64,000 nt of DNA, taken from positions 1 through 64,000 of the forward strand of contig JAAYBV010000108.1 in the NCBI GenBank assembly GCA_012744475.1, in the 5' to 3' direction. This DNA comes from Phycisphaerae bacterium. Its GTDB lineage: Bacteria; Planctomycetota; Phycisphaerae; Sedimentisphaerales; Anaerobacaceae. A program made the translations under genes and the position numbers. The notes beneath the pieces are model-generated. The model was not told the origin of the DNA, ran no database searches, and saw only the letters and a list, made by a program, of their open reading frames with translations. Of the stretch, positions 14,127-64,000 are shown piece by piece (position 1 is the stretch's first letter; each line of letters opens with the position of its first letter).

Positions 14127-15395
14127 ATGGCCTCGGTGTGTTTCTATTTTCAGGTTCATCAACCCTATCGGTTACGACATTACACGATCTTCGACACGGC
14201 GGGTGACTACTTCGACGGATTCAAGAACGCCGAGATCTGCCGCAAGGTCGCGCGCAAGTGCTACCTGCCGACCAATCGGGTCCTTCAGGAACTCATCGAA
14301 CGGCACGGACGGCAGTTCAAAGTCTCTTTCAGCATCACCGGAACGGTGCTGGAGCAGTTCGCCGAGTACGCGCCGGAGGTCCTGGCCAGTTTCCAGTACC
14401 TGGCGGCCACCGGCTGCGTCGAGTTCCTGTGCGAGACGTACCACCACAGCCTGAGCTTCCTGTTCTCCCCGGACGAGTTCGTCCGTCAGGTCGTTGCGCA
14501 CCGGCAACTGATCCGCGACCTGTTCGGCCAGACGCCGCAGGTCTTCCGAAACACCGAACTGATCTACAACAACCAGGTGGCCGAGGCGGTCGCCCGGATC
14601 GGCGGCTTCAAGGCGATCCTCGCCGAAGGAGCGGACCACATCCTGGGCTATCGCAGCCCCAACTATGTCTACAGGCCCCCGAGCGCACCGGGGCTCAAGC
14701 TGCTCCTGAAGAACTACCGTCTCAGCGATGACGTCGCCTTTCGATTCTCCAACCGGTACTGGAGCGAGTGGCCGCTCAGCGTCGGAAAGTTCTGCCAGTG
14801 GGTCAACGCGGTCAACGGTAACGGATACGTTGTCAATCTGTTCGTGGACTACGAGACCTTCGGCGAGCATCAGTGGGAGGACACCGGCATCTTCGACTTC
14901 CTTCGAGAGCTGCCGACGGAAATCCTCAAGCACCCCGACAACGACTTCAAGACCCCCGGCGAAGTGGCCGACGCCTATGAGGCGGCGGACGTCGTCGACG
15001 TGCCCCACCTGGTCAGTTGGGCCGACACCGAGCGCGATCTGTCCGCCTGGCTGGGCAACGCCATGCAGCAGAACGCCATCGCGGAACTCTACCGGATGGA
15101 GCAGGCTGTCAGAGACAGCGGCGATCCGGACCTGCTGCGCGATTGGCGCAGGCTCCAGACCTCGGATCACTTCTATTACATGTGCACGAAGTACTTCGCC
15201 GACGGCGACGTTCACAAATACTTCAACCCGTACGATACACCCTACGACTCGTACATCAACTTTATGAACGTCCTGAACCACATGAGGTCCCGTTGCGGCT
15301 CGCGAGGCGTCGCACGGCCCCCGGCAGCCCGTCTCGTGGCAGCTACCGACGGGAAGAACCGTCGGCGTCCGGCGGACGAGTCCGTTGCCGTGTAG
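14127..15395 (+). CDS. GH57 family alpha-glucan hydrolase / transferase
   Basis: The 422-residue protein begins with FQVHQPYRLR, the GH57 first motif (HQP, 11-13). The catalytic nucleophile is E144 in FRNTELIYNN and the acid/base is D241 in LFVDYETFGEH, both canonical GH57 positions. Family members are alpha-amylases, 4-alpha-glucanotransferases and branching-type enzymes. No signal peptide is present, so the enzyme is cytoplasmic and should act on stored glucan made by the upstream synthase. The last 40 residues (after HMRSRCGSR) are Arg/Ala-rich and look like a non-conserved tail. A GGGGAGATCT ribosome site precedes the ATG, and the gene follows the synthase by 23 nt. Confidence 0.9.
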   Translation: MASVCFYFQVHQPYRLRHYTIFDTAGDYFDGFKNAEICRKVARKCYLPTNRVLQELIERHGRQFKVSFSITGTVLEQFAEYAPEVLASFQYLAATGCVEFLCETYHHSLSFLFSPDEFVRQVVAHRQLIRDLFGQTPQVFRNTELIYNNQVAEAVARIGGFKAILAEGADHILGYRSPNYVYRPPSAPGLKLLLKNYRLSDDVAFRFSNRYWSEWPLSVGKFCQWVNAVNGNGYVVNLFVDYETFGEHQWEDTGIFDFLRELPTEILKHPDNDFKTPGEVADAYEAADVVDVPHLVSWADTERDLSAWLGNAMQQNAIAELYRMEQAVRDSGDPDLLRDWRRLQTSDHFYYMCTKYFADGDVHKYFNPYDTPYDSYINFMNVLNHMRSRCGSRGVARPPAARLVAATDGKNRRRPADESVAV

Positions 15396-15460
15396 CAGCC
15401 GCACCGGGGACGCGTCGTCTCCCTGCCGCGTAGCCAGTCACAATCACACCGCGAAGCCCC

Positions 15461-15489
15461 TTGACGGATGCCTGGATCGGCGATATACT
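15461..15489 (+). promoter_or_regulatory. Promoter for the beta-CASP RNase gene
   Basis: TTGACG (15461-15466), exactly 17 bp, and TATACT (15484-15489). The transcript start would lie near 15496, about 33 nt before the ATG at 15529. Confidence 0.7.
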
Positions 15490-15528
15490 GTATGTTTTGC
15501 CGTGACTGTCGTACAGGGGATACAGCTC

Positions 15529-16935
15529 ATGCAGATCAAGCTACGCTTCCTGGGGGCGGCGCAGAACGTCACCGGGTCACGCCACATGCTCGAAGTCAAC
15601 GGAACGCGGCTGCTGATCGACTGCGGCCTGTATCAGGAACGACAGTTCAAGGGGCGCAACTGGGAGCCGTTCGACTTCCCGGCCTCCAGCATCGACGCGG
15701 TGCTCCTGACCCACGCCCATCTGGACCATTGCGGCCTGCTGCCCAAGCTGGTCAAGGAGGGATTCGCCGGACCGGTGTACTGCACCGCCGCGACCGCCGA
15801 GATCGCCCGCATCATCATGCTGGACTCCGCCCGGCTCCAGGAAGAAGACGCCGAATATAAGCGCAAACGACACGAGCGGGAGGGACGCAAAGGTCCGTAT
15901 CCCGTCGTCCCGCTCTATACAACCGCCGACGCCGAGGCGACCGGGCCCCTGTTCAAGAGGGTGCGGTACAAGACGCCCGTAGAGATCGCCGACGGCATCA
16001 CCGCGACGTTCTGCGAGGCCGGCCACGTTCTGGGCTCGGCGATCATCCACGTGTGCATCCAGAAGAACGGCGAAACCCGCAGCGTGCTGTTCAGCGGCGA
16101 CGTGGGCCGCCCGAATCAGCCCATCGTGCGCGATCCGGCGGAGGTGGACGAAGCCGATTACATTCTCGTGGAATCCACCTATGGCAATCGTGTCCATCGC
16201 GAGCACGGAGACATCAAGACGGACATCGCCGAGGTTATCAACGCCACGAAAGCCGCCGGCGGCAACATCGTCGTGCCCAGTTTCGCACTGGAGCGGTCGC
16301 AGGATCTGCTCTATTACATCAACGAGCTGCTGGCGGAGGATGCGATCCCCCACCTGATGGTCTTCCTCGACAGTCCGATGGCCGGTGCGATCACCAAGGT
16401 GTTCAAGCGCCACAGCGAATTGTTTGACGAAGAGATGACCGAACGCGTGGACAACGGACGATCCCCCTTCACGTTTGAGGGCCTGCACATCACCCAGACG
16501 GCCACGGAATCGAAGGCCATCAACCACATTCGCGGCACGGCTATCATCATCGCCGGCTCAGGCATGTGTACGGGCGGACGGATCAAGCACCACCTCGTCA
16601 ACAACATCGAACGGCCGGAAAGCACGATCATGTTCGTGGGCTACCAGGCGGTCGGCACGCTGGGCCGGCGAATCGTCGATGGAGAGAAGGAGGTCCGAAT
16701 CCTCGGCGAGACCCGCCAGGTCAACGCAAGGGTCGTGCAGATCCACGGCATGAGCGCCCACGCCGACAAAGAGGAGCTGCTGCGCTGGCTCAGCTCACTG
16801 AAGAACCACCCGAAGAAGATATTCGTCGTGCACGGCGAGTCGGAGAGCGCCAAGAGCTTCGGCGCCTACCTCCAGGAGAAGACCGGCTGGGACGTGATGG
16901 TGCCCCAGTTCAAAGACGAGGTGGTTCTCGACTGA
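15529..16935 (+). CDS. Metallo-beta-lactamase / beta-CASP ribonuclease
   Basis: The 468-residue protein starts with the MBL core (MQIKLRFLGAAQNVTGS) and the zinc motif THAHLDHCG (H62, H64, D66, H67). A further ligand is at EAGHVLGSA, and the metal-bridging Asp is in LFSGDVGR. A beta-CASP insert (about 195-330) follows, with VPSFALERSQ. IIAGSGMCTGGR and the C-terminal SAHADKEELLRW and FVVHGE motifs complete the CPSF-73/YSH1-type RNase signature. Such enzymes process or degrade RNA by endonuclease and sometimes 5'-3' exonuclease action. The start at 15529 is set by AGGGGA 9 nt upstream and by a consensus promoter just before it, excluding an in-frame extension to 15385 that overlaps the GH57 gene. 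Confidence 0.93.
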   Translation: MQIKLRFLGAAQNVTGSRHMLEVNGTRLLIDCGLYQERQFKGRNWEPFDFPASSIDAVLLTHAHLDHCGLLPKLVKEGFAGPVYCTAATAEIARIIMLDSARLQEEDAEYKRKRHEREGRKGPYPVVPLYTTADAEATGPLFKRVRYKTPVEIADGITATFCEAGHVLGSAIIHVCIQKNGETRSVLFSGDVGRPNQPIVRDPAEVDEADYILVESTYGNRVHREHGDIKTDIAEVINATKAAGGNIVVPSFALERSQDLLYYINELLAEDAIPHLMVFLDSPMAGAITKVFKRHSELFDEEMTERVDNGRSPFTFEGLHITQTATESKAINHIRGTAIIIAGSGMCTGGRIKHHLVNNIERPESTIMFVGYQAVGTLGRRIVDGEKEVRILGETRQVNARVVQIHGMSAHADKEELLRWLSSLKNHPKKIFVVHGESESAKSFGAYLQEKTGWDVMVPQFKDEVVLD

Positions 16936-51491: not shown

Positions 51492-53633
51492 TCAGAAGTC
51501 GCACAGGCCACAGATGCACCCGCCGGAGTAGTCGTCCTCGACCGACACGAGATCGCTCGGCTGACGAATCTCGTCTCCCATCGAAAGAACCTGCTCGGGC
51601 TTCGAGCCATACCGGTAGATCGTGATGCCTTTGCAGCGGAGCCGATGGGCGGTCAGGTAGATTTCACGAACGTCTTCCACGGTCGCGGCAGCCGGGAGAT
51701 TGATGGTCTTCGAAACGGCGTTGTCGGTATACCTCTGAAACGCCGCCTGAATCTCAAGGTGCTGGCGCGCCGGGATGTCGAACGTCGTGACGAAGAGCTT
51801 CTTCACATCCGACGGCACACCCTTGACGTTCTTCAGAGAGCCGCGTCTTGCCATCTCCGCCAGCATGTCGCGGCGGTAGAAACCGCGATCGCGGGCGACC
51901 TTCTCAAACCACGGATTGGTTTCGAAGAGGCGCGTTCCGGACAGGACGTTGCGAACAAAGCTGATCGCGAACAACGGCTCGATGCCGCTGCAGCACCCGG
52001 CGATAATGCTGATCGTCCCCGTCGGCGCAATCGTGTTGACCGTGGCATTGCGAAGCTTGGAATTCCTCCGGGCATGGATCGATTTCCGGAAACTCGGAAA
52101 CGGCCCCCGGACGCGCGCCAGTTGCTCCGAAGCGACGAGCGATTCGGCGTGAATGAACCGCATGAGCCTGCGTGCAAACGTGACGGCCTGCGGCGAGTCG
52201 TAGGCGATGCCCAGCCGAATCAGCAGGTCGGCAAATCCCATTACGCCCAGGCCGATCTTCCGATTCGCTTTCGTCACGTCCGCGATCGACTCGAGCGGGA
52301 ACCGATTGACGTCGATCACATCATCGAGAAACCGCACACCCCAGTGGACCTGGTCTCGCAGCTTGTCCCAATCGACCCTCGCGCCGGCGCCTTTGCTGCC
52401 GGGGCTCTCCGTAACCATCCGGGCCAGGTTGATCGAGCCGAGGATGCAGCTCTCGAAAGGCAGCAGAGGCACCTCACCGCAGGGGTTCGTCGCTTCGATC
52501 CGGCCCTGCTCCGGCGTGGGATTGGCCCGGTTGATGTGGTCGAGAAAGACCAGACCCGGATCCCCCGTCCGCCAGGCCGCGTTGACCATCATGTCGAACA
52601 GAACTTCCGCCCGGATCTGTCTCGAACCTCGACCCGTCCTGGGATTGACCAACGCAAAGGTCCGTCCGTTGACCACGGCTCGCATGAACCGGTCTGTGAC
52701 ACCGACCGACAGATTGAAGTTCGCCAGAACACCCGCGCGGCTTTTCGCCTCGATGAACTCAACGATGTCCGGATGGTCACACCGCAGGATGCCCATGTTG
52801 GCGCCGCGTCGCTTGCCGCCCTGAACGATGATCTCGGTCGCCTTGTCGAAGATACTCAGAAACGAGATGGGGCCGGACGCATGTCCCTGAGTCGAAGCGA
52901 CCACGTCGCCGCGAGGACGAAGCCGCGAGAAGGCGAATCCGGTGCCGCCGCCGGTCTGATGGATGCGGGCCATCTCTCCCAGGGCCCGAAAGATGCCCTC
53001 AATCGAGTCTTCGATAGGGATGACAAAGCAGGCGGAGAGCTGTCCCAGACGCGTGCCGGCGTTCATCAAAGTCGGCGAGTTGGGCAGGAACTCCAGGTTT
53101 CGCATCATCTCGTAGAACTGCTGCTCGGCCTCGTCGACGACCGATGGCGGTCCGTAGTTCGCTTCCGCTTGGGCCACGTGATGAGCCACCCGGCGGAACA
53201 GCTCGCTGGGCGTCTCAACGATGCGACGCGTTTCATCCCTGAGCAAGTACCTTCTCTTGAGCACCTCGATAGCGTTGACGGACAGCTTGAGGTCGTCGCT
53301 GGAGCCAAAGGCCGCTTTGGCCAGGCGGATTTGCGAACGGCTCTCCCGATACAGAATGTAGGCCTTGGCGATGCGGCTGTGGCCCTCGCTCATCAGGACC
53401 GTCTCAACAATATCCTGAATGGTCTCAATACGGGGAACGCCCCTGGCATGCCGCTGAGCCAGGTGATCGACAACGACCTGGGTTGCCTGTGCCGCAACAT
53501 CGTCCGCGCTCTTCTGGTCCAGGAGGACCTCCAGCGAGGCGCGTCGGATGGCGTCCCGGATCTTGGACGCATCGAACGCCACCACGCGGCCGTCCCGTTT
53601 CTTCACGCCTTTGGGAAGATCAGTGTGAGCCAT
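51492..53633 (-). CDS. nrdJ: Adenosylcobalamin-dependent (class II) ribonucleotide reductase
   Basis: A single-chain enzyme of 713 residues that reduces ribonucleotides using coenzyme B12. It starts with an ATP cone (VVAFDASKIRDAIRRASLEV..., about 15-110). The ten-stranded barrel follows, with NSPTLMNAG, LSACFVIPIEDS (a redox Cys), the catalytic NPCGEVPLLPFESCILGSINLARM (N-C-G-E) and NTIAPTGTISIIAGCCSGIEPLFA. The C-terminal tail CICGLC (CxxC) is the redox relay that reloads the active site. No small beta subunit gene is adjacent, as expected for class II. No intein is present, although many homologues carry one. A weak AGAGGA site lies upstream of the ATG. It converges on the sulfatase. Confidence 0.94.
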   Translation of the reverse strand: MAHTDLPKGVKKRDGRVVAFDASKIRDAIRRASLEVLLDQKSADDVAAQATQVVVDHLAQRHARGVPRIETIQDIVETVLMSEGHSRIAKAYILYRESRSQIRLAKAAFGSSDDLKLSVNAIEVLKRRYLLRDETRRIVETPSELFRRVAHHVAQAEANYGPPSVVDEAEQQFYEMMRNLEFLPNSPTLMNAGTRLGQLSACFVIPIEDSIEGIFRALGEMARIHQTGGGTGFAFSRLRPRGDVVASTQGHASGPISFLSIFDKATEIIVQGGKRRGANMGILRCDHPDIVEFIEAKSRAGVLANFNLSVGVTDRFMRAVVNGRTFALVNPRTGRGSRQIRAEVLFDMMVNAAWRTGDPGLVFLDHINRANPTPEQGRIEATNPCGEVPLLPFESCILGSINLARMVTESPGSKGAGARVDWDKLRDQVHWGVRFLDDVIDVNRFPLESIADVTKANRKIGLGVMGFADLLIRLGIAYDSPQAVTFARRLMRFIHAESLVASEQLARVRGPFPSFRKSIHARRNSKLRNATVNTIAPTGTISIIAGCCSGIEPLFAISFVRNVLSGTRLFETNPWFEKVARDRGFYRRDMLAEMARRGSLKNVKGVPSDVKKLFVTTFDIPARQHLEIQAAFQRYTDNAVSKTINLPAAATVEDVREIYLTAHRLRCKGITIYRYGSKPEQVLSMGDEIRQPSDLVSVEDDYSGGCICGLCDF

Positions 53634-53785
53634 GGTCCGAATCCTCTACTCTCGTGAGCGGTGCCCGTCGCTCGCCAACAGTCGGTGCCTGCCATCCACC
53701 ATACGCATCCCCGCCCGCGTTAACCATCCGTTTTTGCGGTTTTCTGCAGTCGGCCGGCCCGAACGACGGATTTCTGTCAAGATTC

Positions 53786-53815
53786 TTGACCCAAAGTACG
53801 ATCTAAGATTATAAG
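53786..53815 (+). promoter_or_regulatory. Promoter for the polysaccharide export gene
   Basis: TTGACC (53786-53791), 18 bp and TATAAG (53810-53815), about 90 nt before the GTG at 53905, divergent from nrdJ. Confidence 0.5.
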
Positions 53816-53904
53816 CTCTCGCGCCCGGTTTCTCTATCGGATTGCGGAAGGGTGCCCGGGCACTGTAACAGAGTCCCATAATCTTGAAATAAAGGAGAGT
53901 CAGA

Positions 53905-54672
53905 GTGAATCCCTTGAAAGCACTTGGGCTCGTTGCGCTTTTGTTTGCCATCGGCTCGATCGCGGGATGCTTCTCTTCGAATCCCGATGATATCCGCGCC
54001 TTCGTCAAGCCCTACGAGGTTGACGTGACGGCGGAGAACTACGTCTTCGAACCGCCGGATGAGGTGGAGATTCATTGCCCGGACATCCCGCCGATCGACA
54101 TGCAGCGCCAACGCATTCGTCCCGACGGCAAGATCAGCTTCAAAGAACTGGGCGAGATCGAGGTGGCCGGCAAGACTCCCAAAGAGGTGTCCGCTCTGAT
54201 CGAGGGCATGGTTACCGAGCTGTATGCGCTGCCTGGCGACAACCGCATCGATGTCCGCGTGGCCGCCTTCACCAGCAAAGTCTACTACGTCGTTGGACAA
54301 GTGATGCGTCCGGGCCCCCGCAACTACACCGGACGGGACAACCTCGTGACCGCCCTGGCCGACGCTCAACCCAATTCCATGGCCTGGGAGAAGCGGATTC
54401 AGGTCATCCGCCCATCGGCAACCGAGGCCGAGAGGCCGATGATCTTCGAGATCGACTACATCAGGGTCATCAAGGAGGGCGACACCACGAACAACGTACT
54501 CCTGGAAGAAGGCGACATCGTATACGTGCCGCCGACCATCCTGGCCTCCTTCGGCCTGCTCCTCGAAGAGTTCATCAGCCCGATCGCGAGGGCCTTCTAC
54601 GGCGCATATCTCATCCAGAATCCGCCTTCCGGCGGCGGCGAGTACAGCCCCTACGGTGGCAGCCGGTATTGA
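53905..54672 (+). CDS. Wza-like polysaccharide export lipoprotein
   Basis: The 255-residue protein begins at a GTG (AAAGGAGAG upstream) with a lipoprotein signal ending in IAGC. The Poly_export domain lies at about 40-110 (IDMQRQRIRPDGKISFKELGEIEVAGKTPKEVSALIE). An SLBB domain follows at about 120-200 (KVYYVVGQVMRPGPRNYTGRDNLVTALADAQP, RPSATEAERPM, GDIVYVPP). The C-terminal segment (SFGLLLEEFISPIARAFYGAYL) is the amphipathic alpha-barrel helix of outer-membrane export channels. The tail is Gly/Tyr-rich. It should export exopolysaccharide through the outer membrane. The next gene starts 52 nt later on the same strand. Confidence 0.92.
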   Translation: MNPLKALGLVALLFAIGSIAGCFSSNPDDIRAFVKPYEVDVTAENYVFEPPDEVEIHCPDIPPIDMQRQRIRPDGKISFKELGEIEVAGKTPKEVSALIEGMVTELYALPGDNRIDVRVAAFTSKVYYVVGQVMRPGPRNYTGRDNLVTALADAQPNSMAWEKRIQVIRPSATEAERPMIFEIDYIRVIKEGDTTNNVLLEEGDIVYVPPTILASFGLLLEEFISPIARAFYGAYLIQNPPSGGGEYSPYGGSRY

Positions 54673-54724
54673 TGGCGCATCGCGGGGCTCGATCCGGCGC
54701 AACGTATCGCGGGAAGACGAACGT

Positions 54725-55537
54725 ATGACCGCACGACGCCTGCTGAAACTGACGCACGTGGTCAGCATGATCTGGTTCATGCTCTGCGTGGGCTACATCG
54801 TCGTGCGGGCACTCCACGAGGCGGGGTTCAACTGGTTGCTCATCTTCTCGCTTTCGGGCCACTCCGCGCTGGCCGTCTTTCTGCTGGTCAGTCTCTATCT
54901 GTTCGCTCTGTTTCGCGGCGTTGGCGGGACGCAGCATATCGCGCTGGAACACCCTCTCACGAGCACTCACTACTATATGGGGCTCTACGTAGCTGCCCCT
55001 CTTCTCGGAGGCTTGGCCGGCGTTCTGGGCATGTTGGGCGTCCAGGATATCGGTCGTTTCCTGGTGGGATTGGCGCTGGGGACTTTGTGCACGACGTTCA
55101 CGGTCTGGGTGATCATCGATCCGGTGGCTGGCTTGATCGAGATGCTGCTGCCGACCAGCCGAAAGCACCGAGCCGAACGATTGGCCCGGATCGAGGCCGA
55201 TCGGCGGGCCCGTCGCGAGCGACGCGAACGCGTCCTGGCCGAAGCCTTCGCCCGCGAAGCGCAGGAGCGACAACGATGGCAAGAGCGGCTCCAGCCACAC
55301 GCCGAGCGTCTGGCCGTGCTCTTGACCGCCGACGCCTCCGGCTTCCAAAAAGCCGAGCAGGAGGCGGTGGACATCGGCGCCAAAGCCTGGCGGTTGGGTG
55401 GCCTGATGTGTATGCGCCAACTCCGCGACATGGCAATGGATATCTGCAAGAACCAGCGCGGTCAGGCCAAGGCCGTCGACTACGTGTCCTACTGGTGGGA
55501 CGGCATCGGGGATTGGCGAAGACCCTCGCTGGGATGA
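54725..55537 (+). CDS. Hypothetical membrane protein
   Basis: A 270-residue protein with four hydrophobic segments in the first 135 residues (VVSMIWFMLCVGYIVV, WLLIFSLSGHSALAVFLLVSLYLFALF, YYMGLYVAAPLLGGLAGVLGM, LVGLALGTLCTTFTVWVIIDPVAGLIEML). A very basic Arg-rich stretch comes next (RKHRAERLARIEADRRARRERRERVLAEAFAREAQERQRW), probably a coiled coil, then a helical end with SYWWDGIGDWR. Function unknown. Being directly downstream of the export lipoprotein suggests a role in surface polysaccharide assembly. GGGAAGA precedes the ATG. Confidence 0.75.
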   Translation: MTARRLLKLTHVVSMIWFMLCVGYIVVRALHEAGFNWLLIFSLSGHSALAVFLLVSLYLFALFRGVGGTQHIALEHPLTSTHYYMGLYVAAPLLGGLAGVLGMLGVQDIGRFLVGLALGTLCTTFTVWVIIDPVAGLIEMLLPTSRKHRAERLARIEADRRARRERRERVLAEAFAREAQERQRWQERLQPHAERLAVLLTADASGFQKAEQEAVDIGAKAWRLGGLMCMRQLRDMAMDICKNQRGQAKAVDYVSYWWDGIGDWRRPSLG

Positions 55538-55647
55538 GCCGTGCCTCCACCTGCGTCACCACGTCCGCTCGCGGCAGCGGACAAATGCCGAAAACCGCCT
55601 TTCCTGGTTCCAAACCGCGCGGGCAGGCAGGTCAAAGCAGGCTTCCA

Positions 55648-56364
55648 TCACCCCGCTGAACGGAAGCCCGGGCGCCTTCGGAACCACCCAAGAATTCCCA
55701 GGCCTGCAGCCCCCAGTGCAACCGCGCCGGGAGCGGGAACCAGCAGAACGAGCATGTCCTGATCGTCCGCAGGCGGCTCATCGTCTGCAAGCGACGACAG
55801 ATTCAGAACCCGAACGTCTCCAACCGCATTCCATCCGGGATCCTCCGCCTCTGCAACGAACGCATTTGCCCAAGCGTGTTCGAGCGCACGGCCGTTCGCG
55901 GGATACCACTGCGGATCGGCGCTCAGAGTATCGAGAAGGCTTTCGCTCACGCCCTGCACGGACAGCACTGCGGCCCGGAGCACACGAGCCGGCGCCTGGC
56001 GCCCCAGGCCCAGCGCGTGATCGTAGTCGGTAACTGGTGTCCCACCGACAAACGAGTGGTAGAGATACGTCGCCTCAGGCGTCAGCGCACCGCCGCCCTG
56101 CACTACGCGGTCATAAAGCGTCCCCCCATAGGTCTTGGCAGGCACGGATTCGATTCCTGCGCCCGACCCGGCACGAGAGGACTGAAAGGGACTCTCCAGA
56201 GCCAAGCCGGGCACCGGATCCCCCTGCAGCGCGAGTTGATACTCGCCTGCCCAGTCCGGTCGATAAGAGGTGCCGTCGGCCCGCCCGACGGTAACCGTCT
56301 GGACCGCCACCGCAGGGCCTGTCAGAGCCAACAGGCCGAGCGTTGACACAACAAACCGCCTCAT
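55648..56364 (-). CDS. Exosortase-type sorted secreted protein (VPAPGA tail)
   Basis: A 238-residue protein with a signal peptide (FVVSTLGLLALTGPAVAV) and a C-terminal sorting tail: VPAPGAVALGAAGLGILGWFRRRPGFRS (about 210-235). The tail has the PEP-like motif, hydrophobic helix and Arg cluster that define PEP-CTERM substrates, here in the VPAPG variant common in Phycisphaerae. The mature region (TVTVGRADGTSYRPDWAGEYQLALQG...) is beta-rich and unclassified. AAGGAG precedes the ATG. It lies 63 nt after a small membrane-anchored gene and is probably co-transcribed from the promoter at 56942-56970. Confidence 0.85.
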   Translation of the reverse strand: MRRFVVSTLGLLALTGPAVAVQTVTVGRADGTSYRPDWAGEYQLALQGDPVPGLALESPFQSSRAGSGAGIESVPAKTYGGTLYDRVVQGGGALTPEATYLYHSFVGGTPVTDYDHALGLGRQAPARVLRAAVLSVQGVSESLLDTLSADPQWYPANGRALEHAWANAFVAEAEDPGWNAVGDVRVLNLSSLADDEPPADDQDMLVLLVPAPGAVALGAAGLGILGWFRRRPGFRSAG

Positions 56365-56427
56365 CTTTTTCTCCTTGCGTCCTTGCCGGACCCCTTATCA
56401 CCCGCCTGCAAAAAATGGAAACCGTCT

Positions 56428-56841
56428 CTATCTCATCACTTCCTGCCGAGCACCCTGGCGGCTCAAATCCCGACGGACCTGAGCACCGCACGCACTTATC
56501 GGAGGGACTCCCGCCCGCACGTGGCGTCGACACGCTGGTGAAACCGCGCCGATCACCACGCTGGAGCTACCCAACAGTCCGCCGGCCAGCCGCACCATCG
56601 GCGGTGTTTCCGCGGACCGGGCCACGACCAAACCACCTGCGCACTCGGTGCGCCAATGGCCGCACGCGCTGATCCAGAGCCTCACGGGGAAGGAATGCAG
56701 AAAAACCGCGTCGTCCAGACGAGACGACCCGACAACATACGCGCGCCAGCTCTCGACGACCGCGGCGTACCCCAACCCGACCAGAAAGGCTCCGCCCGCC
56801 AACAGAGTGCGCAGGATCCTATGGTCCCTGCCCCAGAACAT
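56428..56841 (-). CDS. Small membrane-anchored hypothetical protein
   Basis: A 137-residue protein starting with MFWGRDHRILRTLLAGGAFLVGLGYAAVV, a clear N-terminal helix. A short soluble part (AYVVGSSRLDDAVFLHSFPVRLWISACGHWRTE) and a less convincing Arg-rich end follow. AAGGAG lies 7 nt before the ATG and a consensus promoter is 101 nt upstream, which supports expression. The C-terminal 40 residues look like non-coding composition, so a frameshift near residue 100 is possible. It precedes the sorting-signal protein in the same direction. Confidence 0.5.
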   Translation of the reverse strand: MFWGRDHRILRTLLAGGAFLVGLGYAAVVESWRAYVVGSSRLDDAVFLHSFPVRLWISACGHWRTECAGGLVVARSAETPPMVRLAGGLLGSSSVVIGAVSPACRRHVRAGVPPISACGAQVRRDLSRQGARQEVMR

Positions 56842-56941
56842 CTCCCGTCTCCTTACGGTGTCGCGTTTTGTCGGAGTTATCGGACCTGCCGGTGACCAAC
56901 CCAACTACACGTGGAGATGGCCCTCGTCCAAACTCTCACGT

Positions 56942-56970
56942 TGTATAGTCGTGCGCTTCTCGGACGTCAA
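56942..56970 (-). promoter_or_regulatory. Promoter for the small membrane protein / sorting-signal pair
   Basis: Minus-strand TTGACG (56965-56970), 17 bp and TATACA (56942-56947). A start near 56935 gives a leader of about 94 nt. The remaining sequence of the 56842-57279 gap shows no gene. Confidence 0.65.
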
Positions 56971-57279
56971 GGCAAAAGCCCAGAAAAACCATAATTCGTC
57001 TGTCACGAGTGCAATTCTTCTCGGTCGTAGGCGATCTGTGTTGTCACATCCTCGGCAGGCGCACGGTGGGGTGATGCGGTGTGGACCCATCAACACACAG
57101 AAAGCGCGTCGTGGGCATGATGGATCCGCCTTCCCGCGAGTTGAGAGACGCGCACGGGTCCGCAATGCGGGCCGTGTGTGCAGCCCGCTCTGTGCGGCAC
57201 GGTCTGTACACCGCTCCATCGGTCTATCGCGGGGGATGGAAACCACGCATCGGTCAGCACCGGGCAAGACACTGAGACA

Positions 57280-57858
57280 TCAGCAGGTCCGCGCACGACG
57301 ACGCTTCAATGCCAACAAGGCGCCCATGCCCAGCAGGCCGACGGTTGCCGGTTCCGGCACGACGTCGGTAGTGTAGGTGATGGTCAGAACGGAACTGCCG
57401 AGGGTAACACGACTTCCGCCGGTTTCGGAGTCGACGTCCACGTAGATGGACAGCTCGCCGTCTTCCCAAAGATCGTTCAGCACGCTTGTCGGCAGCGAGA
57501 ACGTCGTTGTCCCCCATTGACGTCCCCATGTCTCGTCCAGCGTGCCGATAGCCACTCCGTTGGCATAGACCACGTCGATCTCCCCTTCGTAGTAATCGAC
57601 GTCCCAGGCCGAGATGGAGAGGGTGGCCGACAGGATTCCCTGTGCGCCGGCCGGGACAGTCGTCAGGTCGTGCGACCAGCCCCAGTCTTCCCAGGAGCCG
57701 CGGTAGTACGGTGGATGATCGAGGACCACGCCCGGGGGCGCAAAGTAGTACCCATCGTCCGAGTCCACCGTGTTAACCACTGTAACCGTAGCCGCGTGAA
57801 CGGCGCCGCACAGAAGAACAACGCAGACGACGCCCGCTGCAACTGCTGGCAGCCTCAT
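57280..57858 (-). CDS. Exosortase-type sorted secreted protein (VPEPAT tail)
   Basis: A 192-residue protein with a signal peptide (VAAGVVCVVLLCGAVHAA). The mature part is beta-sandwich-like (TVTVVNTVDSDDGYYFAPPGVVLDH..., TLSISAWDVDYYEGEIDVVYANG). The C-terminal tail VPEPATVGLLGMGALLALKRRRARTC is a classic PEP-CTERM signal. The mature region resembles DUF-type carbohydrate-binding or matrix proteins, but I recognise no family. AAGGAG precedes the ATG. It should be processed by an exosortase at the cell surface. Confidence 0.88.
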   Translation of the reverse strand: MRLPAVAAGVVCVVLLCGAVHAATVTVVNTVDSDDGYYFAPPGVVLDHPPYYRGSWEDWGWSHDLTTVPAGAQGILSATLSISAWDVDYYEGEIDVVYANGVAIGTLDETWGRQWGTTTFSLPTSVLNDLWEDGELSIYVDVDSETGGSRVTLGSSVLTITYTTDVVPEPATVGLLGMGALLALKRRRARTC

Positions 57859-58154
57859 ACTCCTTCCTCCAGATTCTTCTCACTCTCTTTTCCATCGATT
57901 GACACTGGACATCTGCAACCGCCGGCCGTGCGCCGTCTTCCTCCATGAGCGATTTCAGGTCCTGTGTCGGCCGGCAACGCAACCTGTGAAGTTGCCCTGC
58001 CTTGCACCGTGTCGAGAAATCCGAGAGGGACAACAACGACCCCGATCTGGAACACGTCACCCCTGGACGCGGCGAATCCGGGTCCCCCACCACTTCTCAA
58101 CGCTTCCCATTTTCTTCCATGGCGAGGCAATCGCCGCAGCGATCCGCCCCCTGA
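57859..58154. other. Intergenic, no supported gene
   Basis: No frame with a ribosome site or codon bias is seen on either strand. No clear promoter for the gene at 57858 was found. Confidence 0.4.
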
Positions 58155-58200
58155 AAAGAGGCCCCGGAGGGAACCTCGGTTCCCTCCGGGGCCTTTCGTT
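58155..58200 (-). terminator. Strong 15 bp hairpin terminator
   Basis: GGCCCCGGAGGGAAC (58160-58174) pairs perfectly with GTTCCCTCCGGGGCC (58179-58193) around a CTCG loop. On the minus strand TCTTTTC follows the stem, so it most likely terminates the gene at 58277-58984, whose stop lies 84 nt upstream. Confidence 0.75.
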
Positions 58201-58276
58201 CCATCACTCGATTTGTCTCCCACCGCCAACACCGTGTCAACCACCACGGGTCATGCGGCAAGACCAAATCCAGCCA

Positions 58277-58984
58277 TCACAGGGTCTTGCGCTTCCGCAG
58301 CCAGCCGACCAGACCCGCGCCCAGCGAGCTGAGCACGATCGCGCCGGGGGCCGGAATCGTCACCGGCTGTTCGGGCTCTTCGGGCTCTTCAGGCTCTTCA
58401 GGCTCCTGCACCTCTGCCGTGAAGGCATTCGCCGTCACATCGACGGTGAGATACAGCCAGCCCTGATTGCCGTACTTCGAACTGACCGTGATGCTGGGGA
58501 GGGGCACCTGGATGACGTCATCCAGGAGGTCGCCGTTGTTGACGACGAATGTGCTGCTCGCACTCTCCGCCGGGTCAACACCTTGCAGTCTATCGAACCT
58601 GAGACCCATGTTGACCAAGTAGTCGGCGCTGTCCCCGGTGAACTCGGTGAACAGATCCCTGGTGATGTCGAAGACCGCCGTGAAAACAGGATAGCCACTC
58701 TCAGTCCCCGCGATATGCTCAATGTACCACGCATGCGAAGCCGCGGCGCTGTCCGTTGCCCCTGCGCTTTCCGGGGCGACGGCGCTGGCGCCCACATGGA
58801 CCCAGTAGCTGCCGGTTGTGGCATCCGCACCCGACAGGGACGTCGACTCTTGCCCATTGAAGTCGAATTGACCGCCACTCCACGTGAGGTTGCCGGTGAC
58901 CCCCACCGTCGAGTATGCCGCGTGACTGGCCGACGCCGTCAGCAGCACCACAGCACACAATACCAATGCTTTTTTCACATTCAT
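58277..58984 (-). CDS. Exosortase-type sorted secreted protein with Glu-Pro repeat (IPAPGA tail)
   Basis: A 235-residue protein with a signal peptide (VLCAVVLLTASASHAA). A beta-rich mature domain follows (TGNLTWSGGQFDFNGQES, YWVHVGASAVAPES, LYLTVDVTANAFT), then a low-complexity linker (EPEEPEEPEEPEQP) and the tail IPAPGAIVLSSLGAGLVGWLRKRKTL, typical of Phycisphaerae sorting signals. The Glu-Pro repeat may be variable in copy number and probably spans the wall or surface layer. AAGGAGGAGA precedes the ATG. A strong terminator follows. Confidence 0.88.
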   Translation of the reverse strand: MNVKKALVLCAVVLLTASASHAAYSTVGVTGNLTWSGGQFDFNGQESTSLSGADATTGSYWVHVGASAVAPESAGATDSAAASHAWYIEHIAGTESGYPVFTAVFDITRDLFTEFTGDSADYLVNMGLRFDRLQGVDPAESASSTFVVNNGDLLDDVIQVPLPSITVSSKYGNQGWLYLTVDVTANAFTAEVQEPEEPEEPEEPEQPVTIPAPGAIVLSSLGAGLVGWLRKRKTL

Positions 58985-59330
58985 ACCCTGATCTCCTCCT
59001 TACTCTCTCTTGTCGGGCCGTCACACGAAATCGACGGCCTCTTGCGTCACGCCTGATTCTGCCTCACTCCATTGCAACAATCTCCTTCATCGCAAGCGAA
59101 CGCAGGTTCCCTCCGCTCGCGGCACCGCTACTGCCCGTCGAGAGCAGAGAACGTCATGGACGGATTCTTGATGCGAAGGCCTTGCGCGCATCGACCCTCG
59201 GCACCAACAAGCTCGCCGCAACGTTCTTCCAAAGAGCATGCGGACGCCCCGCGGACCGCGCCGCACTACATGGCCGCAACAAGCCGGCGATACTCCGATC
59301 ACCCGCTCGAGCCGGCACTCCACGATCCTT
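58985..59330. other. Intergenic, no supported gene
   Basis: No coding frame with a ribosome site is evident on either strand; open frames here are GC-driven noise. Confidence 0.4.
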
Positions 59331-59606
59331 TCAACCGCGGCAGCAGGACACCAGTGGCTGGCGCGATATCTCATCGTGCCTGGCGTTTCTGCTCTGGATC
59401 GTTACACGAAAACCAAAAACACAGGTCGGAATTTGCGAAACAGACATCGGCACCAATGCGGGGATCGGTTCGGCCGGAACTGCCCGAACGACAGGACATG
59501 GCGCCAGCATACCGCCAGCCCACGGACGGGCCGCACGGAGACTCTCCGTTCCCGTCGCCAGCAGCAGCAACGCCGGCACCAGCCATCGTTTTGACTTCCC
59601 GAACAC
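59331..59606 (-). CDS. Possible small secreted protein
   Basis: A 91-residue frame starting at a GTG with AGGAGG at spacing 4. The N-terminus (MFGKSKRWLVPALLLLATGTESLRA) is a plausible signal peptide with a cleavage site after ALRA-like residues. The rest is Pro/Cys-containing and unrecognised. A near-perfect promoter lies 150 nt upstream. Coding status is uncertain: the codon pattern after the signal is weak, so it may be a decayed gene. Confidence 0.35.
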   Translation of the reverse strand: MFGKSKRWLVPALLLLATGTESLRAARPWAGGMLAPCPVVRAVPAEPIPALVPMSVSQIPTCVFGFRVTIQSRNARHDEISRQPLVSCCRG

Positions 59607-59754
59607 CGCTCCTCCTCTCTGACGGCACTACGCAGCAGCGACACATCTTGCTCGCTGCGCACCATCAGAGAAAGTGCCCTCTCTCCAAGCGTCTATCCAT
59701 GACGTGACGAAAACGCGGTACACACCCCCTCCGATGAGGCGTACATACTCTGGT

Positions 59755-59783
59755 ATTCTACCGTTTCAGGCCATACCTGTCAA
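59755..59783 (-). promoter_or_regulatory. Near-consensus promoter
   Basis: Minus-strand TTGACA (59778-59783), 17 bp and TAGAAT (59755-59760, five of six). It fires towards the doubtful small gene at 59606. This is one of the best promoter matches in the window. Confidence 0.7.
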
Positions 59784-59985
59784 AGCAATTTGCACGAAAA
59801 AGATCAGATATTCCCTTCGACCGAAACCACTGCGGATGTCCCGCCGTCTGGGGGCCGAGAACCGATCTGGACCGTGGCACCGCCATGTGCCCTTCGCACG
59901 CGACCGGCGGCATCGCGCAGAGGATGAATCCTCGTGACACTGTCATACCACTTAGGAGCTATTCATTTAGTGGTAGACGATCTCC
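59784..59985. other. Intergenic, no supported gene
   Basis: Between the strong minus promoter and the terminator of the LuxR-type gene; nothing recognisable. Confidence 0.4.
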
Positions 59986-60018
59986 AAAAAATAAGTGACC
60001 GGACACCGGCGTCCGGTC
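59986..60018 (-). terminator. Terminator of the TPR / LuxR operon
   Basis: Minus strand: GACCGGAC (60018-60011), six-base loop, GTCCGGTC (60004-59997), then ACTTA and six Ts (59991-59986). It lies 118 nt after the LuxR-type stop. Confidence 0.7.
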
Positions 60019-60135
60019 GTTTCCGTCGGCCCATGGAACACCCACGGAACCGAACCGTGATTCGGTCAAGCGGAAGCATCCTGATATGTGGTTTTGGAGA
60101 TGCTGAGCCTGGATCACGGGCCGCAGGGGCCCGGC

Positions 60136-60486
60136 TCAGTCGAGGGATTGCGTGGAGGGCAGAGGGCTCTGGAGCCCGGCAGGACCGCTGGCCTCGTTGA
60201 CAAACCGCAGAAGCATCGCAATCTTGCTCTTGACCTTCACCTTGCGGTAGATGTTCCTGACGTGTGTCTTGACCGTCCCCGGGCGGATCCGCAGATCGCG
60301 TGCGATGCGGTCGTTTCGGAACCCCCGGCACACCAGTTCCGCGATCTGCAATTCCCGAGGAGTCAGCTCGTACCGCCTCCGCACATACGACCACTGTCGG
60401 CTGTCCAGGAGCACGGGGCGAACCTCCGGGCCGGCACGGTCGGGCCCCCGGCAATCGCCCTCTGTTGTTTCATGTGGCGGGGACAT
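60136..60486 (-). CDS. Stand-alone LuxR/NarL-type HTH regulator
   Basis: A 116-residue protein consisting of little more than a LuxR-type HTH (about 40-92: LTPRELQIAELVCRGFRNDRIARDLRIRPGTVKTHVRNIYRKVKVKSKIAML). The motif TVKTHVRNIYRKV is intact, and R/K residues follow. There is no receiver or sensor domain, so activity may be set by partner binding. The ATG overlaps the TAA of the upstream TPR gene (TAATG), which couples their translation. The pair may regulate and carry out exopolysaccharide or exosortase functions. Confidence 0.85.
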   Translation of the reverse strand: MSPPHETTEGDCRGPDRAGPEVRPVLLDSRQWSYVRRRYELTPRELQIAELVCRGFRNDRIARDLRIRPGTVKTHVRNIYRKVKVKSKIAMLLRFVNEASGPAGLQSPLPSTQSLD

Positions 60487-63400
60487 TATCCATTGCCTTT
60501 CTGCAACTGTTCCACAAGACGTTCTGCATCGGCCAGATCCTCCTGCGACAACTCGCTCTTGCGCTGCCCGGGATCGGTCGACTGCCTGCTGCTGCGATGC
60601 AGGGCCAAGGCCTGCTCAACGTGTCGAATCGCATCCGCCTTTCGTCCCATCTCCGCGTAGACTCTGGCAAGGTGGAAATGGGTCGAGGCTATTGCCGTGG
60701 CGTTGACCGGATACAACTCCAGGCTCCGGCTCAAGTCCTGGACGGCCTCGTCCAGACGTCCCAGGCGGTAGTGAATGACACCTCGCGTCTCGATCAGATC
60801 GATGTACTCCGGCCGCATCTTCAGACCCCGATTCGCCAGTTCCAGCGCCTTCTGATACTGCCCCTGCTCCTCGCAGAGAAGCCAGGCGAGGTTGTTCATG
60901 GCAAAGACGTTCTCTGGGTCGCTGTCCAGGATCTTCTGATTGAGGGCGGCGGCTTCCTCCGATCGCCCCGCCACAGTCACCAGGTTGGCCAGCAGATGCA
61001 GCGGCGGGAGAGCTTGCGGGTGGCGCTCGATCTCCGATCGCAGCAGTCTCTCGGCAAACTCAAATCCCTTCTGGCCGCCGTCGGCGATCAGGTTTCGCGC
61101 CACGGCCGTCGGAACCGCAGCGTCATCCGGGCGCTTGGCGCGCCAGTCTGCCAGAAGAGACTCCAGTTCGGTCCAGCGTTCGGCGGAAACCAGCAGTCCA
61201 GCCCATGTGACGACCAGCGACGCATCGTCCGGCTCGGCCTGTAGAAGGCCCCTGAGAATCTCGGCCGCCTCATTCGGCTCACCACTGCGATACAGCACCG
61301 TCGCCAAGGCGATCTCGCCCTGCTTTCGCCCCGGCCCTGTCTGGGCGCCCAAATGGTGGCGGAGAAGCCGGACGGCTTCCTGAGGCCGATCTGAGTGCAA
61401 GTACGAGAAGGCCAACTGCGAGACTACGCTCATGTCATTGGGGTCCTGATCGATCAACCCTCTGAGGGTCGGCACTGCCAGCATGGGCGACCGGCGCGCC
61501 TCCGCCTGGGCCTTGAGCAGCAACAGTTGCCGGCTGTCCGGATTCGCTGCCAGACCTCGAAGAGCCACATCCATGGCCCTGGCCACCTGGTCTTCGCGCA
61601 ACTCCAGTATTCCGAGCAACTCCCAGGCATCGGCGAGGTCTTGGTTCTTCTCCGTGATCTCGCGAAGCAGCGTACGCGCCTGCTCGGCAGCCGGCGCCGT
61701 TTCGCGACGGAGCAGCACGCGCGCTTTGTGCAACCTCAGCCCCATATCCTGCGGATGCAGTCGGAGCGCCTCTTCGAGCATAGCCTCCCCCCGCTGGAAC
61801 AGCACGGGGTCACCCGAGTTCAGGAACAGGAACAGCGCCCGCTGCTGCACCGGGAGGTTGTCGCGGGACAGTTCCAGAGCCTTCTCGATATCGGAAATGG
61901 CCTCTCTACTACGTCCGGTTCGGATGAAGAAATCGGACCGAGACAGCCAGATCTCTGCCTTCTCGGGAGCCAAAGCAACCATTCGATCGTAGTCGGCCTG
62001 TGCGTCGTCGTAGCGCTTCAAGGCCTCATACGTCCTGCCGCGCAGTAGCCGCGAGAAGACGCTGTCCTCTCGGGCAATGGTTTGGCCGCAGAGGCGCAAC
62101 GCCGCATCGGCATCGCCTCGCTCGACGTCGAGCTGCACCTGAGCGACAATGACCGAGACCGATTCCGGATCCCTCGCCTTCACCGCGTTAAGGGCGGCCT
62201 GGGCTTCGTCGTACTTCTGCTGCGCCCCGAGAATCGACACCAGTCGCAAACCGGCCGCTGTATCGTTCGGGTCCTGCCGAACCAAGTCCTGCAGTATATC
62301 TGAGGCAGACACCAAGGCATGCCGCCGCGCCGCAGAATCGCCGGCTTTCGCGCTGCGCCGCAGGTGTCCCTGCAACTGCAGTCTCTGAATGTCCGGGTCG
62401 TAAAGATCGCGCGACTTGGCCCGATCCAAGATCCCCTGTGCCTCTTCATCTTCGCCTGCCTGGTAAAGGGCCTGCACCGTTCGGGTGACCACTCCGACAT
62501 CGTTGGGCCATCGTTGGATCGCCTCCCGATACATGGCCAGAGCCAGTTGCAGGTCTCCGCCCTTCTCATACGCGGCCGCCAGAAGCAGGCGGCTGGAGCG
62601 GTCCTCCGGATTGGACAGGAGGTTTTCCTGCAGCAGCCGGACCACCTGGCCGTAGTAGCTCTGGAATCCCTCGGACAGAATCCAGACCCTTGCTTGCTCC
62701 ACGCGCCACTGCCAACCGTCCTGCCCCTCGATCGATTTGATTTGATCCACGATGGACTGCGACATCGCGGGATCTTCCAGCACACGATCGAGCGTCAGCA
62801 GACGGCGTTTGGATCCTATATCATCCGGAAACTCCTTTGACAGGTCCGTCAGCAATTCATAGAGGGGCTCATCTCGGCCCCACGAGACATACAACTCCGC
62901 CAGAAGCATGCCGAGACTCCGCCGGCCCGCCTTGTCCATTCTCGACATCGCGTCGCGGATAGCGGCCTCGCACTCCGACCGCTTATTCTGTCGGTTCAGC
63001 AGCAAGGCGAGGTTTCTGACAGGTTCCGTGCTCTGCGGGAACTTCTCGATCGTCTGACGCAGCAGCGACACGGCCTCGGACCCCTTTCCCTCGTCTACGC
63101 ACAATTGCGCCCGCAACAGCATGGCGGCAAGCCGATCCGTCTGGCCGGCCTCCAGTTGGCCGAGCATCGTCGCGGCCTCCGCATGTTTGCCTTGGAACAT
63201 GGCGGCCTGGACCCGGAGCAGTTGGACTTGACCCGCCTCGACGCCTGCGGCGCTCAGTGCGGCCAATCTTGCCTCAATGGCCCGCCAGCCGCTGCGCGCC
63301 GACTCTGAATCGCCCGCGCTGGCCAACAGGCGCATGCGCGCCTGGATCTCGAGCAGCGCGGCGCTGGTCCGCAGATCGGGAACCTTTCCGTCCGTCGGTT

Positions 63401-64000
63401 CGGGAACCAGCCGCTGCACCTGCTGGGCCTGGTCGAGGACACCAGACCAGTCTTCGGCCTGCGCCAGCAACTGTGCCAGAGCCAGATGGAACTGGGGGTA
63501 ATCCGGCACGTCCGAGACCAGAAGGCGGAGCTGTTCGATCGCGGAGTGGAGGTCGCCCATCTTCTGAAGAACGGAAGCCAGGAACATCCGGACCGGAGGA
63601 AAGTGGCCGCGCCACATCCGGTCCCGCCGTGACTGATATCCCAGCGCGATCGCCTTTCTCCAGAAGGTCGCCGCCTCCTGCAACTGCCCCTTCTGCTGCG
63701 CGAGATAGCCTTCGAGAAAGGCGCTTCTGGCAGGCTCGAAGTCCTTCTTCTGCATCTGAAGGATACAGTCGGCCGCCTGCTCAAACTGCTTGGCCCGGAT
63801 CAGCAGTTCCGCCGCCCAAGGCAGGAAATCCCAGGGGTAGACGGCCAGCTCTTTGAGGCCGGCCTCCGCTACAGCCTGCATCTCCTGTTCCGAGTTGGAT
63901 TGGATGGCCACCATGGCCCAGTACCGCCAGAGATCCGGCTCCGTGGGTGCCTTGGCTCGCAGGGCGGCAATCTGCACTCTGGCTTGGTCGTAGGCAGCGG
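60486..64000 (-). CDS. Very long TPR-repeat protein (partial, runs off the right edge)
   Basis: The frame is open to the window edge, giving at least 1171 residues; the true N-terminus is outside. The sequence consists of tandem tetratricopeptide repeats (for example AMYREAIQRWPNDVGVVTRTVQALYQAG, YDDAQADYDRMVALAPEKAEIWLSRSDFF, ALELANRGLKMRPEYIDLIETRGVIHYRLGRLDEAVQDLSRSLELYPVN). TPR proteins of this size in PEP-CTERM regions (PrsT-like) are linked to exopolysaccharide export and sorting. No enzymatic motif is seen. Its stop is coupled to the LuxR gene by TAATG. A signal peptide or membrane anchor may lie beyond the edge. Confidence 0.9.
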   Translation of the reverse strand, partial: AAYDQARVQIAALRAKAPTEPDLWRYWAMVAIQSNSEQEMQAVAEAGLKELAVYPWDFLPWAAELLIRAKQFEQAADCILQMQKKDFEPARSAFLEGYLAQQKGQLQEAATFWRKAIALGYQSRRDRMWRGHFPPVRMFLASVLQKMGDLHSAIEQLRLLVSDVPDYPQFHLALAQLLAQAEDWSGVLDQAQQVQRLVPEPTDGKVPDLRTSAALLEIQARMRLLASAGDSESARSGWRAIEARLAALSAAGVEAGQVQLLRVQAAMFQGKHAEAATMLGQLEAGQTDRLAAMLLRAQLCVDEGKGSEAVSLLRQTIEKFPQSTEPVRNLALLLNRQNKRSECEAAIRDAMSRMDKAGRRSLGMLLAELYVSWGRDEPLYELLTDLSKEFPDDIGSKRRLLTLDRVLEDPAMSQSIVDQIKSIEGQDGWQWRVEQARVWILSEGFQSYYGQVVRLLQENLLSNPEDRSSRLLLAAAYEKGGDLQLALAMYREAIQRWPNDVGVVTRTVQALYQAGEDEEAQGILDRAKSRDLYDPDIQRLQLQGHLRRSAKAGDSAARRHALVSASDILQDLVRQDPNDTAAGLRLVSILGAQQKYDEAQAALNAVKARDPESVSVIVAQVQLDVERGDADAALRLCGQTIAREDSVFSRLLRGRTYEALKRYDDAQADYDRMVALAPEKAEIWLSRSDFFIRTGRSREAISDIEKALELSRDNLPVQQRALFLFLNSGDPVLFQRGEAMLEEALRLHPQDMGLRLHKARVLLRRETAPAAEQARTLLREITEKNQDLADAWELLGILELREDQVARAMDVALRGLAANPDSRQLLLLKAQAEARRSPMLAVPTLRGLIDQDPNDMSVVSQLAFSYLHSDRPQEAVRLLRHHLGAQTGPGRKQGEIALATVLYRSGEPNEAAEILRGLLQAEPDDASLVVTWAGLLVSAERWTELESLLADWRAKRPDDAAVPTAVARNLIADGGQKGFEFAERLLRSEIERHPQALPPLHLLANLVTVAGRSEEAAALNQKILDSDPENVFAMNNLAWLLCEEQGQYQKALELANRGLKMRPEYIDLIETRGVIHYRLGRLDEAVQDLSRSLELYPVNATAIASTHFHLARVYAEMGRKADAIRHVEQALALHRSSRQSTDPGQRKSELSQEDLADAERLVEQLQKGNG

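Follow-up and report, generated by a model that had tools for sequence, protein, structure and literature searches.

A candidate variant exosortase/exopolysaccharide locus in a Phycisphaerae bacterium, with nucleotidyltransferase-like modules predicted on its exosortase and its priming transferase

Exosortase systems of the XrtA type are described, in the available part of Haft 2006 (PMC1569441), as using PrsK/PrsR and PrsT, and the same text reports four examples of EpsH fused to a CAAX protease-like domain, which were read as a functional link. For the archaeosortase ArtA, gene context led to mutants, and lipid enzymes proved to be needed for processing and lipid attachment (accessible text of PMC7157517). 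Control at the level of the priming phosphoglycosyltransferase (PGT) has precedent as well: the DUF of WbaP is reported to sense UMP (PMC10942596), and the priming protein EpsZ to be activated by EpsW (PMC12802240). Among the titles listed in literature searches, with subscription papers mostly out of reach, none described the fusion of an exosortase to a nucleotidyltransferase module.

To our knowledge, the target to which exosortases attach their cargo is not known. In the pairs GMPPA/GMPPB and eIF2B-epsilon/eIF2B-gamma, paralogous modules are paired and one or both of them are catalytically dead. Here we describe a locus whose exosortase carries a module predicted to have this same fold, with a candidate partner module on the PGT encoded nearby. 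Our preferred reading, to which we assign a probability of about 0.55, is that the analysed DNA covers the 3' half of an exopolysaccharide locus of the Wzx/Wzy type that has an exosortase of its own. On this reading it is a variant exosortase/EPS system whose sugar priming is linked to protein sorting by a pair of pseudoenzymes. If this is correct, the fusion and the partner module on the PGT would suggest both a definite acceptor and a definite complex, and the locus would be a bacterial, membrane-bound case of eIF2B/GMPPA-type pseudoenzyme pairing.

Genes of the locus within and beyond the window

The window, that is, the whole stretch of 64,000 nucleotides that was analysed, corresponds to C97:1-64000 in a genome of 5.75 Mb and 118 contigs. 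The original prediction had placed the exosortase outside the window and had allowed that the region continues to the right. Both proved correct: extension of the contig and searches of the added sequence found an exosortase gene 5 kb past the window edge (PF09721 match over cut-off at C97:69083-69850), together with a PGT, a Wzc-like kinase and glycosyltransferases in a run on the same strand (Table 1). A flank and genome devoid of exosortase and EPS genes, which would have refuted the original prediction, was not what the searches showed. The minus-strand order on C97 is glycosyltransferases, amidotransferase, PssD/PssE-like genes, methyltransferase, fusion exosortase, Wzc-like kinase, PGT, TPR, LuxR and tail-protein genes, and Wza and orf270 lie beyond the latter on the plus strand. 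The glycosyltransferases are of family 2 and the amidotransferase is asparagine-synthase-like, both on the exosortase strand.

Table 1. Coordinates of the features of the locus (window positions, or contig positions where prefixed with C97)
Feature	Position	Strand	Description
Wza-like polysaccharide export protein	53905-54672	+	255 aa; PF02563 (Poly_export) 47.2 bits, cut-off 28
orf270 (adjoins Wza)	54656-55537, alternative start 54725	+	hydrophobic segments followed by a charged one
Cargo protein, tail VPAPGAVALGAAGLGILGWFRRR	55648-56364	-	tail-model match 43.7 bits (genome search)
Protein with canonical PEP-CTERM tail VPEPAT, VPEPATVGLLGMGALLALKRRR	57280-57858	-	TIGR02595 23.6 bits, cut-off 16
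Cargo protein, tail IPAPGAIVLSSLGAGLVGWLRKRKTL	58277-58984	-	tail-model match 56.1 bits, the best in the genome
Possible small signal-peptide ORF (uncertain)	59331-59606	-	91 aa; 38% identity over 87 aa to a frame in L043, E 7.7e-8
Sigma-70-like promoter TTGACA-17-TAGAAT, ahead of cargo genes	59755-59783	-	11 of 12 positions match
Terminator-like hairpin 3' of LuxR	59997-60018	-	9-pair stem, then a T-rich tail
HTH-only LuxR-family regulator	60136-60486	-	116 aa; GerE PF00196 55.9 bits
TPR protein	60486-64775, of which the window holds 60486-64000	-	1429 aa in full; PrsT-like
Priming PGT	C97:64893-66611	-	572 aa; 1-345 nucleotidyltransferase/beta-helix-like, 376-565 Bac_transf
Wzc-like kinase	C97:66672-68984	-	770 aa; TIGR01007 125.2 bits, cut-off 108.05
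Fusion exosortase	C97:69002-70993	-	663 aa; 12-327 nucleotidyltransferase + beta-helix, 382-637 exosortase

The possibility that the genes of the window form a satellite did not survive the extension of the contig. The cargo genes do have their own promoter-like site beyond a terminator-like hairpin, and Wza is on the opposite strand, as would be expected of an independent group; set against this, among the 21 related loci that extend 3.5 kb or more past the TPR gene, tail-protein genes were found in 15 and Wza and/or orf270 in 11. The exosortase 5 kb past the edge and this recurrence in relatives ruled out a satellite without an exosortase, and we regard independence of the window genes from the exosortase as very improbable.

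Comparisons with relatives were made in part in the named loci, which are the 79 loci of the best 80 of 181 relatives, many of them from the same genomes as loci L042-L081. The TPR protein had been predicted to exceed 1170 residues and to be coupled by TAATG to a bare LuxR-HTH, all of which the complete gene confirmed. At the junction, GGATAATGTC, the last A of the TAA stop is the A of the LuxR ATG, so that one base is shared, and GerE was the sole Pfam domain over cut-off in the LuxR protein. In 35 of 40 distinct pairs the two genes are spaced by -4 to +4 bases. Of the named loci (best 80 of 181 relatives), 47 have a TPR gene that is complete and followed by 450 or more bases, and LuxR lay directly 3' of TPR in 38 of these, in 36 by gene call and in two (L118 and L152) by HMM; in the other nine, neither gene call nor HMM identified a LuxR after TPR. 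As a guide to the membrane topology of TPR, the charge bias of 32 TPR proteins was divided, with the N-side more positive in 8, the C-side in 15 and a tie in 9.

Genome-wide, exosortase matches numbered three, on C53, C97 and C13. The C53 and C13 loci (L010, C53:14001-34000, and L011, C13:21001-41000) encode giant TPR proteins of 1532 and 1660 residues without LuxR, for which the LuxR HMM search gave no match in either locus, and each has a possible gene that we label EpsI-like.

Terminator-like sites were more numerous in the region than in shuffled sequence (10 versus a mean of 3.7). The promoter scan alone is no proof, because its single site is at the shuffle level (mean 0.9). Promoter-like sites 3' of LuxR were also seen in the sister loci L042, L043 and L045, and a looser scan gave such sites 3' of LuxR in part of the loci only. 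A search for a LuxR binding site found none; LuxR may act on the promoter-like site at 59755-59783. In five loci (L049, L050, L052, L055 and L060) a recurrent protein of approximately 240-290 residues is encoded directly 3' of LuxR or, in L060, next in line. It has a signal-like start, an internal sorting-like motif LPAVPxA..MVLTGFICxSLxKDR and a C-terminal RGPP or HGPP, and the two examples tested had no Pfam match.

The Wza-like channel of the original prediction was supported by its Poly_export score. For orf270 no Pfam family was identified in a search at E 0.1; its relatives in two sister genomes are 83% and 79% identical and adjoin the same cassette, and conserved copies lie next to Wza in several relatives. 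The small signal-peptide genes were borne out weakly, by the one 91-residue frame in Table 1 that resembles a frame of a sister genome. No tRNA or tmRNA was found within the window, and 53500-64000 had no Rfam match at gathering score.

The exosortase fusion and the two modules

The exosortase half of the fusion matched PF09721 at 200.8 bits (cut-off 25.7) and TIGR02602 at 144.6 bits (cut-off 105.55). Residues C549, R594 and H615, which we take to be the Cys/Arg/His triad of exosortases, were identical in 32 of 32 aligned fusions. In the structure model (mean pLDDT 82.2), residues 12-327 are predicted to form a nucleotidyltransferase domain followed by a left-handed beta-helix, the fold of GMPPB and eIF2B-epsilon. 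The best matches were to chain 7d73_F of the GMPPA/GMPPB complex (Z 30.1, 2.9 A over 310 residues) and to the eIF2B chain 9hve_I (Z 29.7), and the fold-match list of the fusion exosortase was filled by this one domain and so covers the N-terminal module.

The positions presumed to be catalytic in nucleotidyltransferases, the signature lysine and the metal aspartate, were placed by alignment to two enzymes of the same genome (L162 and L164) and to eIF2B-epsilon; three others of the genome (L161, L163 and L165) were left out because their frames had been wrongly chosen. Lysine was present at the former in 0 of 32 module sequences and aspartate at the latter in 0 of 32, and the exosortase-side module thus looks catalytically dead from its sequence. 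The loss is not total, because D205, near a second metal site, is an aspartate in 21 of 32. Other positions were strongly retained. The GTAG loop kept its G, A and G in 32 of 32 and its T in 29, W37, Y173, D175, K177 and L180 were invariant in all 32, and a DFGRC motif occupied the former signature site at 27-30 of 32 per column.

The predicted full-length fold, the GTAG loop, the partial retention of D205 and the new conserved motif at the former signature site would all suit a working enzyme, atypical in its active site, that supplies this polysaccharide with its sugar nucleotide. We consider this quite improbable, as the lysine and the metal aspartate are missing from every sequence and five further PF00483 matches in the genome exceed the cut-off.

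The PGT matched Bac_transf (PF02397) at 200.4 bits, and D475 and E476, presumably the DE dyad of PGTs, were invariant in 30 of 30 sequences. In its structure model (mean pLDDT 76.2), residues 368-567 are predicted to have the PGT fold, with matches to PglC and WbaP (Z 16.4 and 16.3). The modelled residues 1-345 matched eIF2B chain 7f66_I (Z 16.2, 5.7 A over 290 residues) at approximately 9% identity, a weak match to the nucleotidyltransferase/beta-helix fold, and the first 200 residues matched no nucleotidyltransferase family model. A profile comparison of the exosortase module with the PGT module gave 99.2% (E 2e-19), strongest over the beta-helix. By prediction, then, the two modules share one fold. 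Residues 1-345 were modelled as short helices and strands, the longest helix being of 14 residues, and no N-terminal transmembrane helix bundle was seen. A WbaP-type DUF was absent from the fold matches and Pfam rows of the PGT, lists that could miss one.

The fusion recurred in relatives. The named relatives (best 80 of 181) are mostly titled Sedimentisphaerales, Phycisphaerales, Phycisphaerae or simply Planctomycetota; the odd titles are Pelotomaculum, Candidatus Kuenenia and uncultured bacterium, one each, and the first two are probably mis-binned. A usable exosortase gene call was missing in four of the 79 named loci, and in 70 of the remaining 75 the exosortase was fused. Among the five others, two were cut, L154 and L159 start less than 60 bases from a contig end, and in L158 the split is genuine, the neighbouring gene encoding the module. 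Gene order was likewise retained in the named loci, with Wzc next to the exosortase in 71 of 73, the PGT second in 62 of 65 and TPR third in 55 of 60. In another locus, L070, a split-off module (14512-15804) has a near-perfect repeat of the AENEQVAGSKKQ type inserted in its nucleotidyltransferase part.

Sampling was extended to the class (298 genomes), where the full fusion query matched 63 at E 1e-60, many via the exosortase part alone, and to the phylum (294 genomes), where the module alone matched 10 at E 1e-20. Outside the order, the fusion was identified in three genomes of family f57, which is also outside the class (37-38% identity), and in three of family f19 (28-33% identity; L176, L177 and L182, the last truncated on the 5' side). 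One starred clade of the tree (99/96) united the order with f57 and included four split cases, and f19 made up another on a long branch; the fusion in f19 may be of independent origin. In L186 and L181, from other lineages, a free nucleotidyltransferase-like module lies beside a PGT that has a beta-helix, near a separate exosortase.

Sorting tails and co-occurrence of the modules

All three predicted sorting tails of the window are present, and the label of variant is right for the outer two, VPAPGAVALGAAGLGILGWFRRR and IPAPGAIVLSSLGAGLVGWLRKRKTL, because these fall under the PF07589 cut-off of 20.7 (14.9 and 15.5 bits). The middle tail is canonical and was the one of three over cut-off with the PEP-CTERM models TIGR02595 and PF07589; the protein that bears it has relatives in L042, L043 and L045. 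A model built from 23 cassette tails gave the outer tails 40.6 and 52.8 bits in a direct scan, in which the VPEPAT tail had no match. Similar tails were found next to the same genes elsewhere (38 tails in 16 of 40 fetched loci). This recurrence and the tail-model scores argue that the outer tails are not chance.

Ninety-nine related genomes were sorted by hand into 54 with a cassette exosortase domain and 45 without, and the tail model matched 62 of the 99. Matches occurred in 52 of the 54 with the domain and in 10 of the 45 without (Fisher p 2.1e-15, a value that ignores kinship and so overstates the independence of related genomes). In genomes at least 90% complete, the figures were 30 of 30 and 4 of 24. 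Some of the tested genomes had contributed cassette tails to the model, so the 52 of 54 is partly by construction; the absence of tails in 35 of the 45 domain-less genomes, for which all candidates were scored, is not. Contig ends perhaps explain G018, G031 and G042 among the ten tail-positive genomes without the domain, and not the rest.

In the genome itself at least 13 tails matched the model, two of them in the window, with 150 of 225 candidates scored. The three tails beside the C53 exosortase (VPVPGAVLLG..ARLRRR) were absent from that search, which scored 150 of 225 candidates, and in a direct scan they reached 10.8-16.2 bits, whereas the two C97 tails reached 40.6 and 52.8. Their low scores, together with the VPEPAT tail outside the model, indicate that several sorting codes may coexist in this genome. 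A stronger version, two codes without any overlap, was softened, as the C53 tails still score.

In the same 99 genomes, the exosortase-side module was identified in 53 and the PGT-side module in 55; both were present in 51, neither in 42 and only one in 6. Because these genomes are kin, the Fisher p-value of this association, too, overstates their independence. In five of the six mismatches (G001, G018, G031, G046 and G086) the match positions put the missing gene at or past a contig end. The sixth, G041, is real: in this genome of one contig the fusion is present along with 39 tail matches, the PGT module is missing, and the operon is broken inside Wzc. At that locus (L047, G041:C1:2534001-2554000), the break is followed by unrelated-looking genes.

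Four further genomes depart from the common arrangement. In G019 and G025 both modules persist; the operon lacks an exosortase domain, and the tail model matched nothing in either genome. Their loci, L188 and L189, encode the module as a free protein and have shorter TPR proteins, called at 1296 and 804 residues. In G083 and G092 the exosortase domain was kept and neither module was found, and the G092 operon is without a PGT. The absences in G083, G092 and G025 are not firm, because these genomes are incomplete (84%, 78% and 77%).

These cases bear on two other interpretations. In one, this is an ordinary PEP-CTERM/EPS locus whose modules are inert, either membrane-proximal spacers or relics of sugar-nucleotide enzymes kept as stabilisers. 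The catalytic positions are gone, fusion between operon neighbours is common, and some exosortases without modules seem functional if tails are a guide (11 tail matches in G083 and 8 in G092). Relics decay, yet the invariant residues and the GTAG positions persist in all 32 sequences, DFGRC is conserved at the former signature site, and genomes that have lost the exosortase domain still keep the two modules, each on its own protein; we judge this interpretation unlikely, if still worth reckoning with. In the other, the module oligomer serves polysaccharide priming only, with the exosortase fusion incidental and sorting independent of it. This would explain why the module in G019 and G025 stays with Wzc, PGT, TPR and LuxR in operons lacking an exosortase domain. 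It sits poorly with the retention of the fusion in 70 of the 75 named loci (best 80 of 181 relatives) and with the separate-gene relatives L181 and L186, which also lie near exosortase genes, and we find it somewhat unlikely as well.

Proposed mechanism and comparison with known systems

Under our preferred reading, a pseudoenzyme pair coupling priming to sorting, the roles of the single enzymes would follow from their families. The PGT would prime the lipid carrier, the glycosyltransferases would extend the repeat, and Wzc and Wza would provide chain control and export. Cargo proteins, encoded at scattered sites in the genome, would have their IPAPGA..GWLRR tails cleaved by the exosortase, and the TPR protein may be a PrsT-like scaffold. 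The modules on the exosortase and the PGT, a peculiarity of this group, are presumably cytosolic and could pair in the manner of GMPPA/GMPPB or eIF2B-epsilon/eIF2B-gamma by mutual binding, in which a nucleotide or nucleotide sugar may take part. Such pairing would tie sugar priming and sorting at one site, and the PGT module would stand in place of the nucleotide-sensing DUF of WbaP. LuxR, encoded by the last gene of the operon, might activate the cargo genes from their separate promoter after the machinery has been produced.

We speculate further that the exosortase and the PGT form one hetero-oligomer, in which the paired modules sense a nucleotide sugar and cargo is handed to the lipid-linked glycan at the same site. 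We hold this extension to be doubtful, and if true, it would name the acceptor of an exosortase.

The C97 locus would work like an exosortase/EPS system. It resembles the XrtA/PEP-CTERM (EpsH) systems, as far as the available text describes them (PMC1569441), in its exosortase, PEP-CTERM-like cargo, EPS glycosyltransferases and PrsT-like TPR protein, and differs in the modules on the exosortase and PGT and in the HTH-only LuxR gene next to TPR. We did not file it as XrtA because PrsK (TIGR02916) had 24 matches in the genome and none over the cut-off of 300 (best 102.4), and because the full TPR protein and the fusion exosortase were under the cut-offs of the PrsT model (TIGR02917, 254.2 bits, cut-off 312.2) and the XrtA model (TIGR03109, 144 bits, cut-off 208). 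The EpsH-CAAX fusions in the same text (PMC1569441) are also fusions of an exosortase domain, with a different partner domain.

Like the large monotopic PGT WbaP, the C97 PGT has a C-terminal catalytic domain and an additional N-terminal part, which in WbaP is regulatory. In WbaP this part is a helix bundle and a DUF, as the accessible text has it (PMC10942596), whereas in the C97 PGT it is predicted to be nucleotidyltransferase/beta-helix-like. With GMPPA/GMPPB and eIF2B-epsilon/eIF2B-gamma the locus would share the predicted fold and the paired modules; unlike in those complexes, the modules, seen here through sequence and predicted fold, are joined to membrane enzymes. Finally, the archaeosortase ArtA with PssA/PssD is likewise a sorting enzyme tied by gene context to lipid-anchoring enzymes, and, in the available account (PMC7157517), it differs from the C97 system in being archaeal, in involving polar-lipid enzymes encoded by separate genes, and in having been tested experimentally.
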